NCBI GenBank assembly: GCA_001874365.1
Contig: MPDF01000002.1
Span: forward strand, 1 to 64,000
From: Gammaproteobacteria bacterium MedPE
Lineage (GTDB): Bacteria > Pseudomonadota > Gammaproteobacteria > Enterobacterales > Psychrobiaceae
Length of the DNA: 64,000 nt
Direction of reading: 5' to 3'
This document shows positions 12,332-16,143 of the stretch, one piece after another. The notes beneath the pieces are model-generated. The model was not told where the DNA came from and made no database searches. It saw only the letters and a program-made list of their open reading frames with translations. The stretch's first letter is position 1. The number at the start of each line of letters is the position of its first letter. A program made the translations under genes and the position numbers.

Positions 12332-12361
12332 AAAGCCATCAATTAACGATGGCTTTATTTT
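12332..12361. terminator. Bidirectional terminator between creD and the small membrane protein gene
   Basis: AAAGCCATC (12332-12340) pairs with GATGGCTTT (12348-12356), with A runs on the left and T runs on the right. Its right arm overlaps the stop codon of the minus-strand gene. Confidence 0.8.
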
Positions 12362-12630
12362 TTGGATAGCGATTGTTTGGATTGCTCAATGTTATTAATA
12401 ATATGACTAAGGCGATAGGCTAAGATGCCTAGCCAGCCAATAAACCCAAGGACAATCGCGATGACAATGATAATAATCGCGCTATAACCCAACCACGAAT
12501 CTTCACTCGGGTTATGCCACAACAAGGCTAAACCTGCACCAAATAAAACAAGGCCACTAAAAAACAAAGCAACGCTCTGTTTTATATAGTGGCCTAGTGG
12601 ATATAGAAGTCGTTTAGCGCGTTCTAACAT
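12355..12630 (-). CDS. Small two-TM membrane protein downstream of nfuA
   Basis: 91 residues with two hydrophobic helices, about 17-36 and 50-71, and a Lys/Gln/Ser-rich C-terminal tail. Its ATG overlaps the nfuA stop by one base (TAATG), so it is co-translated with nfuA. I do not recognise a named family. The length and basic ends suggest a small inner-membrane protein; a link to Fe-S biogenesis is only suggested by coupling. Confidence 0.75.
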   Translation of the reverse strand: MLERAKRLLYPLGHYIKQSVALFFSGLVLFGAGLALLWHNPSEDSWLGYSAIIIIVIAIVLGFIGWLGILAYRLSHIINNIEQSKQSLSKK

Positions 12631-13208
12631 TAATAGTAAGAATGATCGCCCGCTTGGTGCTCTGTCATATCTTTAACGCCTGTTAATTCACCGGCAAAGA
12701 TCTCTAGCATTTCTTTTTCAATGCCTTCTTTAAGCGTCACATCAACCATAGAACAACCGTTACAACCGCCACCAAATTGCAGAATAGCGTTACCGTCGTC
12801 GGTAATTTCCATGAGTGTTACTTGACCACCATGGCTTGCTAGCTTTGGATTGATGTCAGATTGAATAAAGTAATCAACGCGATCAACTAATGGAGCGTCG
12901 TCACTTACTTTACGCATCTTAGCGTTAGGCGCTTTAAGTGTTAATTGTGAGCCCATTTTGTCAGTGACATAATCGATTTCTGCTTCATCAAGATAAGGAA
13001 CACTTTGCTCATCAACAACCGCAGCAAAGCCATTATATTCAAAACGCTTATCGCTTTCTTCTAAGGCTTCGGGCGGGCAGTAAGATACGCCACACTCAGC
13101 GTTTGGTGTGCCAGGGTTAACGACAAAAACACGGATGGCTGTGTTTTCTGGCTGATTACTCAATAGCTCACTGAAATGAACTTGAGCTTGATCTGAAATT
13201 GAAATCAT
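12630..13208 (-). CDS. nfuA: Fe-S biogenesis protein NfuA
   Basis: 192 residues. NfuA carries a 4Fe-4S cluster between subunits and delivers it to apoproteins under oxidative stress or iron limitation. The N-terminal A-type-like domain (about 1-95, degenerate; CGVSYCP) is followed by the Nfu domain with the CxxC motif C149-N-G-C152 in [21 protein letters not shown]. The length matches E. coli (191). The order nfuA-comF-bioH is the same as in E. coli (nfuA-gntX-bioH). The upstream spacing to comF is 114 bp. Confidence 0.95.
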
Positions 13209-13322: not shown

Positions 13323-14078
13323 TTAATCACTAATAATCGTTCGTGCCACAGCCCAATGTTGAATTTCAATCGTTTGTTGTTGGAGTATGGTCTCGCTAAT
13401 TTCATGCATAGTGGCGCCAGTCGTGTATACATCATCGACTAAGGCTATTGAGTTGTAGGTAATTGGTTTACGTAATTGAAAAGCGTTGTCTAAGTTGTGC
13501 TGCCGTTGTTTCGCATCTAGCTCAGCTTGTGATTGGGTCGAACGGAGGCGTTTAATATTCTCAATGACCGGAATATTGAGATATTGGCTAAGTTCATTTG
13601 CAATGAGTTGGGCTTGATTAAAGCCTCGCTTGGCTTGTCGTCGCCAATGAAGAGGAACCGGTTGAATAGCCTGCGGCATGGCAATAATTTCTTGATCGAT
13701 GAGCTTATAAATTCGTCGCGCCAAAAAATGTGCTAATTCACGCGCAAGGCTCATTTGCTGACGATATTTAAAATCGCTCAATAATTGCTTTATGGGCGTT
13801 TGATAATACCCACCAGTCACGAGAATAAACTGAGGTGCTGATTGTTGGCATTGTCCGCACCACTTCACTACTGCGGAGATGTTTTTAGCACAACCAATAC
13901 ATAACTGTTTAGGGAATATTAAATCTTCACGGCAAATATTGCAGAGTCTATGTCGAAAATGTGGTGTCTGTTCGTGGCATAGATAACAACCATGAGGTAA
14001 ACCATTGCGCAAAGTAATAATAGATTGCGTTATCCAATGGTAAAACTTGAGTGATACAATGCGATATCTGCTAGTCAT
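13323..14078 (-). CDS. ComF/GntX family phosphoribosyltransferase-like protein
   Basis: 251 residues from the ATG at 14078; a TTG-initiated extension to 14096 is possible but adds nothing typical. The N-terminal zinc-ribbon-like part has CYLC, CNIC, CIGC and CGQC pairs (about 30-85). The C-terminal PRTase-like domain has the PRPP loop IALVDDVYTTGATM near residue 215. ComF proteins support uptake of transforming DNA in competent bacteria, and GntX is the E. coli homologue. It is divergent from bioH across 84 bp. No strong ribosome site is seen. Confidence 0.9.
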   Translation of the reverse strand: MTSRYRIVSLKFYHWITQSIITLRNGLPHGCYLCHEQTPHFRHRLCNICREDLIFPKQLCIGCAKNISAVVKWCGQCQQSAPQFILVTGGYYQTPIKQLLSDFKYRQQMSLARELAHFLARRIYKLIDQEIIAMPQAIQPVPLHWRRQAKRGFNQAQLIANELSQYLNIPVIENIKRLRSTQSQAELDAKQRQHNLDNAFQLRKPITYNSIALVDDVYTTGATMHEISETILQQQTIEIQHWAVARTIISD

Positions 14079-14162
14079 AAGATTAACTATAGACAATAAA
14101 AAGGGTATCGACGAACTGTTACTTTTTTGAATTTTGTTTTGATTAATTAAAGGTAATATTAC

Positions 14163-14930
14163 GTGTTACATGTTGAAAAAATAGGTCAGGGGCCAGCGCT
14201 TGTCTTGGTACACGGTTGGGGACTCAATAGTGGTGTTTGGGCGCAAGTTCAGGTGACCTTAGCCAAAAATTTTACTTTATATTGTGTAGATTTACCGGGT
14301 TTTGGTCATAGTGAGCAACGTGTCGATTCAGATATCAAGGCATGGGCTAAGGCTGTAAGTCAGGCTATTGAAGCGCCAGCTGTATGGTTAGGGTGGTCTC
14401 TAGGTGGTTTAGTGGCCACACAAGCTGCACTTGATTACCCTCAGCAAGTTAGAGGACTAATTACAGTAGCTAGCTCTCCACGATTCTCTGATAATGAACA
14501 ATGGCCAGGCATCAAACCTGAAGTTATGACGATGTTCACCAAGCAATTGGCGACAGATTTTGCATTAACGTTAGAGCGATTTTTGGCAATTCAGGCAATG
14601 GGCAGTGACAGTGCGAAACACGATATTAAAGCACTCAAGGCTGTGCTTGATGAGCGTCCATTGCCACAACAGCAATCGTTGCATGACGGATTATCATTAT
14701 TAAATGATGTTGATTTGCGTGAATTGATTAAAAATATTGAACAACCCTTCTTGAGGGTTTATGGCCGGTTAGATTCATTAGTGCCAAGTAAGGTTATTAG
14801 CTTAGTTGATGAATTATCTCCGAAAAGTGAAAAGGTTATCTTTAAAAAAGCATCTCATGCGCCATTCATTTCCCATAGCGATGAATTTATCGCGGTGATA
14901 AAAGACTTTATGGCGACAGTTGAACATTAA
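14163..14930 (+). CDS. bioH: Pimeloyl-ACP methyl ester carboxylesterase BioH
   Basis: 255 residues. BioH hydrolyses pimeloyl-ACP methyl ester to end fatty-acid-like elongation before biotin synthesis. The alpha/beta hydrolase has oxyanion motif VLVHGWGLNS, nucleophile S79 in GWSLGG, D204 in GRLDSLVP and H232 in KKASHAPFISH. The start is GTG (LHVEK follows), preceded by AAAGG. The location opposite comF is the classical bioH neighbourhood. No other bio gene is in the window. Confidence 0.93.
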   Translation: MLHVEKIGQGPALVLVHGWGLNSGVWAQVQVTLAKNFTLYCVDLPGFGHSEQRVDSDIKAWAKAVSQAIEAPAVWLGWSLGGLVATQAALDYPQQVRGLITVASSPRFSDNEQWPGIKPEVMTMFTKQLATDFALTLERFLAIQAMGSDSAKHDIKALKAVLDERPLPQQQSLHDGLSLLNDVDLRELIKNIEQPFLRVYGRLDSLVPSKVISLVDELSPKSEKVIFKKASHAPFISHSDEFIAVIKDFMATVEH

Positions 14931-15000
14931 ATTTAACTTTCAATTTAGTCAGAATTGATTAATAATTAAACTAACTGTCAACTTTGAAAAGGGATATAAA

Positions 15001-15276
15001 ATGAATATTCAATCTGCATTTGATTCCGGTGTTGCAGGATTTAATCAAGCGACTGAACGAGCTGCCGAATCTGCAAGAGAAATTAATCAACAACAAGTTA
15101 CTCAAACGCAGCCAAACGAAGAAGTTGTGGAGGTTGAAACATCAGCACAACAGAATACGCCAGTAACTGAAAGTCTTATCAATTTGCGCTTAGCAGAAAC
15201 TCAAGCGCAAGCCTCTGCGAAGGTCATTGAAACTGCCGACAATATGTTGGGAAGTTTAATTGACACCAAGGTTTAA
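15001..15276 (+). CDS. Small protein resembling the terminal helices of flagellar axial proteins
   Basis: 91 residues. The N-terminus (MNIQSAFDSGVAGFNQATER, about 1-30) and the C-terminus (SLINLRLAETQAQASAKVIE to LIDTKV, about 58-91) look like the D0 helices that start and end flagellar rod/hook proteins such as FlgC and FlgG (compare xLIxxRxYQANAKVIxTADEML). The middle is a Gln/Glu-rich linker with no D1 domain. There is no signal peptide, as with axial proteins. The ATG follows AAGGGAT. The next gene starts 10 bp after its stop. The structural likeness is my reading; no flagellar gene is nearby and the function is unknown. Confidence 0.6.
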   Translation: MNIQSAFDSGVAGFNQATERAAESAREINQQQVTQTQPNEEVVEVETSAQQNTPVTESLINLRLAETQAQASAKVIETADNMLGSLIDTKV

Positions 15277-15285
15277 ATAGTTGTT

Positions 15286-16143
15286 ATGAATGTCACCACT
15301 AACTATCCAAACGTTAGTCTAGTTACCACTAATCCGGCAACTGATAGAGTTGCACGGGATAATGCTGTGCGTCCTGTAGTACCGCCGGTGACTCAGCCAA
15401 ATAGCGCTGGTGCTGAGCCAGCAGTCGCTGGTGATAAAGAAAAAGCCCAACCTAACTTACCAATAGTACCAAGTACTAATCCGACTTATGACCAATTGCA
15501 GCACTCATCTACTCAACCTAAAGAGCTTAACGAAAACCAAGAGCAGTCTGGTCAACAACAAAATGAAGAACGTGAGCAACCTAACGAAGATAGTGAGCGT
15601 TTTACCGAGCAAGAACAAGCAAAAATAGATGAGTTAAAAGATAGAGATCGTGAAGTTGTTGCCCATGAACTTGCACATGCAAATGCTGGTGGACAATATG
15701 CTGGCTCTCCTAGTTATACGTATGAAACTGGTCCTGATGGTGTTAAATACGCTGTTGGTGGTGAAGTTCCTATTGATACATCGAAAATAGCAGGAGATCC
15801 TCAAGCAACGATAGCAAAAGCCGCACAAATCAAGCGAGCTGCTTTAGCACCCGCAGAGCCATCAGGACAAGATCGTAAAGTCGCCGCACAAGCTGATCGA
15901 ATGGCTAGTGAAGCGCGTAGTGAATTACTCGCAGAGAATAGTGCAGTTTCTAAGGATGATGAAGAAAGTAAAGGTAATTTCCGTATCGATAATGCGGTTG
16001 AATCTGATCGTTTTAATGAAAAAGTAACCCTAGCTAAAGATGAAGAATTTCAACAAACGATTGTTAACAGAAGTCAGCATATTAATGCCTTCTATCAACA
16101 ATCTAGTCAAGCTTCAAACTCTCAGTTCTATTCTCAAGCCTAA
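15286..16143 (+). CDS. SprA-related putative metalloprotease (CJM1_0395 family)
   Basis: 285 residues. The N-terminal third is Pro/Gln/Glu-rich and probably disordered. From about residue 105 there is the family core: REVVAHELAHANAGGQYAGS with a HExxH-type HELAH zinc motif, then YETGPDGVKYAVGGEVPID and a helical DPQATIAKAAQIKRAAL / QDRKVAAQADRM segment, as in the SprA-related family (PF12118). No signal peptide is seen. It is probably co-transcribed with the mini-axial protein gene, and its stop overlaps the tex stop by 4 bp. Substrate unknown. Confidence 0.8.
   Translation: MNVTTNYPNVSLVTTNPATDRVARDNAVRPVVPPVTQPNSAGAEPAVAGDKEKAQPNLPIVPSTNPTYDQLQHSSTQPKELNENQEQSGQQQNEEREQPNEDSERFTEQEQAKIDELKDRDREVVAHELAHANAGGQYAGSPSYTYETGPDGVKYAVGGEVPIDTSKIAGDPQATIAKAAQIKRAALAPAEPSGQDRKVAAQADRMASEARSELLAENSAVSKDDEESKGNFRIDNAVESDRFNEKVTLAKDEEFQQTIVNRSQHINAFYQQSSQASNSQFYSQA

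Follow-up and report, generated by a model that had tools for sequence, protein, structure and literature searches.

A conserved gene pair encoding a D0-only axial-like protein and a SprA-related protein, a probable accessory of flagellar export

Two adjacent genes in the window, by which we mean the whole 64,000-nucleotide stretch of DNA that was analysed, encode a very small protein resembling the ends of flagellar rod and hook subunits and a SprA-related protein with a putative metal-binding motif. Because the pair is conserved across many marine bacteria, and in the genomes sampled only in flagellated ones, it is probably an accessory of flagellar export. The window is part of a contig (C93) of a genome with 81% completeness; in the sample, the family of this genome comprises one genus only, and the gene order hints at Shewanella or something closely related. 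The genes concerned are arranged as follows, the two ORFs of the pair being taken from the ORF list.

12355-12630, minus strand: ORF of 91 aa adjoining the nfuA-like gene, hydrophobic and membrane-like, without a Pfam match
12630-13208, minus strand: nfuA-like gene, upstream of the pair
13323-14096, minus strand: comF-like gene, upstream of the pair
14163-14930, plus strand: bioH-like gene, upstream of the pair
15001-15276, plus strand: mini axial-like ORF, 91 aa (the "mini" gene)
15286-16143, plus strand: SprA-related (PF12118) ORF, 285 aa
16140-18419, minus strand: tex, downstream of the pair and convergent with it

A preliminary description of this DNA had placed the mini ORF ahead of the SprA ORF at these coordinates and had seen no flagellar gene nearby. 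Both statements hold. The gap calculated from the ORF coordinates is 9 bp, flagellar genes are absent near the pair, and the flagellar matches of the genome sit on other contigs (C64, C23 and C81). FlgI was matched twice in this genome (G000), on C64 and C23 with near-equal scores, and rod-gene matches of equal score were found on the same two contigs. A duplication, whether in the assembly or of strains, could explain these doubled matches, as could a second set of flagellar genes.

Sequence comparison identifies both ends of the mini protein as homologues of the D0 helices found in flagellar rod and hook proteins, the C-terminal end more clearly than the N-terminal one. Its parts are these:

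residues 3-34, plus strand: D0-type N-helix (predicted model)
between the helices, plus strand: linker, Gln-rich and disordered, roughly 20 residues (predicted model)
residues 54-90, plus strand: D0-type C-helix (predicted model)
15154-15264, plus strand: match to Flg_bbr_C (PF06429), mini residues 52-88 (Pfam profile)

In the Pfam profile search, the FlgEFG C-terminal family PF06429 scored 21.4 bits (E 1.8e-4) against the window protein, just below the cut-off of 23 bits, and PF00460 gave no match; PF06429 was matched by 17 of the 25 mini family members. A profile built from 25 mini relatives (A1) and run against the whole PDB at E<=1 retrieved flagellar axial proteins only, namely FlgK, FlgE and FlgG. 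A second profile, made from named genomes (A5), again placed these three on top and added FlgC, along with weak, unrelated matches to E2 glycoprotein (E 0.17-0.26). In a separate comparison of the two ends, hhalign was used to align each half of the mini profile with terminal sequences taken from 25 genuine axial proteins of the genus and order concerned. The C-terminal half matched the axial C-termini with an E of 1.2e-10 and the N-terminal half matched the axial N-termini, in register, with an E of 0.0015; when the halves were swapped (N against C, C against N) nothing matched, and the real scores of both halves exceeded those of all 60 column-shuffled controls. The preliminary description had staked its reading on a profile match to flagellar axial proteins and on co-conservation of the two genes, and the PDB matches and the two half-by-half scores supply the first of these.

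The predicted model of the mini protein consists of a helix at residues 3-34, a disordered linker and a helix at residues 54-90 (pLDDT 67, modest confidence); the D1 domain is missing, with the roughly 20-residue linker in its place, and Foldseek found no significant match to the model in the PDB. Together with the profile results, the model agrees with the earlier picture of two D0-like rod/hook helices joined by a Gln-rich linker without D1. On the prevailing view, flagellar axial proteins can build a tube only if the D0 core is surrounded by D1 and by larger domains. With the axial class represented by FlgB/C/E/F/G/K (PF00460, PF06429), the mini family appears to share both terminal D0 helices, in register; it differs in total length (75-113 aa), in having a flexible linker and no D1 or D2, and in being encoded away from flagellar clusters. 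We set it apart from the standard members because D1 is absent and PF00460 is unmatched by the window protein. A mini relative in another genome (G292, locus L160) clears the PF00460 cut-off and carries the classic NIANTxTPGF N-terminal signature, and this protein forms a near-canonical bridge to the rod/hook D0 sequences. FliE-like axial proteins also lack D1, and FliE and the injectisome needle and inner-rod proteins (e.g. YscI, PF17001) are small and all-helical. The resemblance of the mini protein to the FliE/YscI type would be one of working principle only, and by sequence it is not a member: among the 25 mini family members the FliE profile had no match and PF17001 had a single weak one (E 0.011). 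A PHROGs search matched nothing. Ratios of dN/dS against the two closest relatives are 0.062 and 0.092; the mini gene is real and under strong purifying selection.

The downstream gene is likewise real. The PF12118 (SprA-related) profile matches its product with 141.8 bits against a cut-off of 27.3, and dN/dS against the two closest relatives is 0.044 and 0.070. Its features are as follows.

15286-16143, plus strand: SprA parts, comprising a conserved N-terminus (residues 1-20), a disordered linker, the HExxH core (about 101-236) and a conserved C-terminal tail (model, conservation)
15286-15345, plus strand: N-terminal 20 residues, candidate type III export signal (conservation)
15664-15678, plus strand: HELAH, residues 127-131, putative zinc-binding HExxH (sequence)
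15763-15765, plus strand: E160 of the invariant GEV motif, candidate third ligand (alignment)

Residues H127, E128, H131 and E160 are invariant in 36 aligned relatives. In the predicted model, residues 1-100 are mostly of low confidence and predicted to be disordered, and the core, 101-236, is confident and helical with a beta hairpin, so that the earlier view of a HELAH-containing SprA-family protein with a disordered N-terminus was well founded. A zincin fold has been predicted for SprA-related proteins by others from weak profile scores (PMC3650047). Foldseek found no fold match for the model in the PDB (best E 1.1), and the SprA profile drew only an irrelevant fimbrial match from PDB sequences (E 0.023); because no solved structure matches the model, "metalloprotease" stays a prediction for SprA. 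Within the genus, residues 1-20 are the most conserved stretch of the protein (91%, versus 78% for the core and 44-48% for the linker). A type III export signal would be expected to have this form, with a conserved leader followed by disorder. By inspection, the N-termini of SprA and of the mini protein are both polar and unlike signal peptides, as had been supposed. Some diverged SprA relatives (L054, L055 and L056, in G293 and G065) have EExxH in place of HExxH; from their sequences they are probably non-catalytic, and we infer that they represent an alphaproteobacterial lineage.

The pairing of mini and SprA is a genuine conserved association, which is the second point on which the preliminary description had staked its reading. 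In relatives, 30 SprA loci were inspected, and at 27 of them the mini ORF lies directly upstream of SprA. A further set of 80 named loci, drawn from GTDB genomes, leans to the gammaproteobacteria because a narrower SprA alignment was used for the scan; at 75 of these the two genes are adjacent and mini is intact. Two arrangements, each with the pair at the end of biotin genes, were found: comF-bioH-pair-tex in Pseudoalteromonas, Rheinheimera and the window's genus, and bioC-bioD-pair-acyl-CoA dehydrogenases in Marinobacter and its allies. The pair stays adjacent in both and the outer neighbours change. In genome G326, which is of the same phylum and probably an alphaproteobacterium, an ORF of 145 aa that matches the mini, axial-N and axial-C profiles follows SprA on the same strand after ~0.9 kb, a neighbourhood that we read as an independent association.

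Exceptions occur on both sides. SprA is without a mini neighbour at 5 of the 80 loci and in several other genomes, and in one genome (G024) the two genes are apart. Pseudomonas-like, Vibrio-like and further gammaproteobacterial genomes have the mini gene with no SprA next to it; the Pseudomonas-like genomes examined keep it at the bioD position with no SprA gene beside it, unlike the pair in the window. Each gene thus occurs without the other, and therefore neither strictly requires its partner. The SprA-less mini genes (L151, L155, L156, L157, L160 and others) lie in several different gene neighbourhoods.

Co-occurrence with flagella, a check proposed in the preliminary description, was scored with FlgI, the flagellar P-ring gene, as the marker of a flagellated genome. 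Among relatives, SprA is present in 34 of 45 FlgI-positive and 0 of 14 FlgI-negative genomes (Fisher p=3e-7, inflated by shared ancestry). In a sample of the phylum all 24 genomes with SprA are FlgI-positive, against 239 of 299 overall (p 0.006, optimistic for the same reason). SprA was accordingly confined to FlgI-positive genomes, with none in FlgI-negative genomes of either sample. The mini gene shows a similar distribution in the gammaproteobacteria of the phylum sample, being present in 36 of 69 FlgI-positive and 0 of 18 FlgI-negative genomes (p=2e-5, again inflated by shared ancestry). What links the pair to flagella in these counts is a correlation. None of the loci examined places the pair inside a flagellar cluster, and in the single-contig relatives checked SprA lies about 1 Mb or more from FlgI.

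Published work touches on each gene in a different organism. The P. aeruginosa gene between bioD and an acyl-CoA dehydrogenase, at the position of the mini homologue, we take to be PA0505; by this synteny PA0505 is the probable mini orthologue. Its function is unassigned, and it has been captured as a surface-exposed protein (PMC3511353). In C. jejuni, the SprA-related protein CJM1_0395 (26 kDa) appears in the supernatant only if flgG is intact, as seen in two strains (PMC5223770). CJM1_0395 and the window SprA have the same PF12118 domain, an HExxH motif and similar size, and no apparent signal peptide. In the literature we found, a paired mini-axial gene is not described for the C. jejuni protein, a mini-axial partner is not discussed, and no role is given for SprA in any Shewanella-like bacterium.

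We favour, with moderate confidence, an explanation in which the pair serves the flagellar type III export apparatus as an accessory module, SprA being a metalloprotease-like cargo and the mini protein its D0-only, axial-like partner. The mini protein would keep the D0 helices that rod and hook subunits use for packing in the axial tube, with a flexible linker between them. Most likely it would be exported through the flagellum, and it may then pack by D0-D0 contacts at the rod or the hook base while the axial structure grows, or else wait at the export gate. SprA would most likely be a metalloprotease-like cargo that takes this route too; for it the mini protein would be a docking site, a structural partner or a regulator of export. 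The export of both proteins, their physical interaction, and the peptidase activity of SprA and its target are what we infer. Possible joint action on a flagellar assembly, which the preliminary description had also suggested, finds its strongest support in the flagellum-dependent secretion of the C. jejuni relative (PMC5223770). Several observations weigh against this explanation or against a fixed system of two parts: mini genes lacking SprA in Pseudomonas- and Vibrio-like genomes, SprA genes lacking a mini neighbour, the location away from flagellar clusters, a promoter unlike the sigma-28 type, the absence of PDB matches to either model, and SprA relatives whose HExxH no longer has its first His. 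A bolder version, which we regard as quite improbable, draws on an analogy with the injectisome needle or inner rod: its two D0 helices might let the mini protein polymerise at the base of the flagellum as a short, thin tube or a plug built of D0 alone, an alternative end of the export channel that would deliver SprA.

The same observations could be accommodated if neither protein were a secreted effector, the mini protein regulating the export gate from within the cell, for example at a rod-subunit or chaperone site, and SprA being a cytoplasmic or periplasmic peptidase that processes flagellar parts. Lacking D1, a protein reduced to D0 could pass for a rod subunit at the gate, and a separate role for mini would agree with its persistence where SprA is missing, in the Pseudomonas- and Vibrio-like genomes. 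However, the C. jejuni SprA relative reaches the medium only with an intact flagellum (PMC5223770), PA0505 was captured at the cell surface (PMC3511353), and a highly conserved N-terminus such as that of SprA suits an export signal better than it suits a cytoplasmic enzyme. We consider this explanation unlikely, while giving it some weight.

Chance inheritance would account for the pattern if the flagellar link came by lineage and the gene order beside the biotin genes were neutral, the two proteins having unrelated jobs. Most loci do follow either the comF-bioH-pair-tex or the bioCD-pair-acyl-CoA dehydrogenase arrangement, both of them ancestral, and each gene is also found alone. Adjacency nevertheless survives in both arrangements though the outer neighbours change, an independent SprA/mini-axial neighbourhood occurs in the alphaproteobacterial genome, no FlgI-negative genome in two samples has SprA, and the mini protein has a homology of its own to axial proteins, which makes coincidence a rather poor prospect. 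As for the mini ORF being spurious, or the remnant of a rod or hook gene that has decayed, the lack of D1 and the position outside any flagellar cluster are what such a remnant would show, but the dN/dS of 0.06-0.09 against the two closest relatives, the intact reading frame at 75 of 80 loci and the conserved element preceding the gene leave this a negligible chance, and we regard it as refuted by selection and conservation.

As a widespread D0-only member whose gene lies apart from flagellar clusters, the mini protein would represent an axial component, or a regulator of export, that has been overlooked, and the pair probably belongs to the flagellar export machine as an accessory not studied before. 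It offers an entry point to two orphan families, one being the SprA-related proteins (PF12118), for which all that is known so far is the flagellum-dependent secretion of the C. jejuni protein, and the other represented by PA0505, the probable mini orthologue.

The region between bioH and the mini gene contains a conserved sequence element:

14937-14967, plus strand: promoter-like element CTTTnnTTTT-N9-TGnnYRATAATT, upstream of the mini gene, with one mismatch in the window

The core of this element is found upstream of the mini gene at 41 of 113 loci, compared with 6% of shuffles, and the copy in the window is the sole match to the pattern in its genome at 0-1 mismatch. It is present in several families (upstream regions L002-L011 and L091-L135). 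The element was rejected as the mark of a regulon, since its matches elsewhere are no more frequent than those of a reversed control. Flagellin genes of the window's genus have a sigma-28-type promoter, TAAAG-N14-GCCGTTAA, from which the element differs, and sigma-28 control of the window pair was rejected on this ground; the pair may still be under flagellar control of another kind. A scan of the 113 upstream regions with the sigma-28 consensus gave one perfect match (L042) and a modest general excess. In Pseudoalteromonas and one relative, the palindrome CGGCAA-N4-TTGCCG, or a sequence close to it, lies between bioH and the mini gene; it was seen in upstream regions L034, L092, L096-L099, L125, L127, L133 and L135, and is possibly an operator or the bioH terminator.
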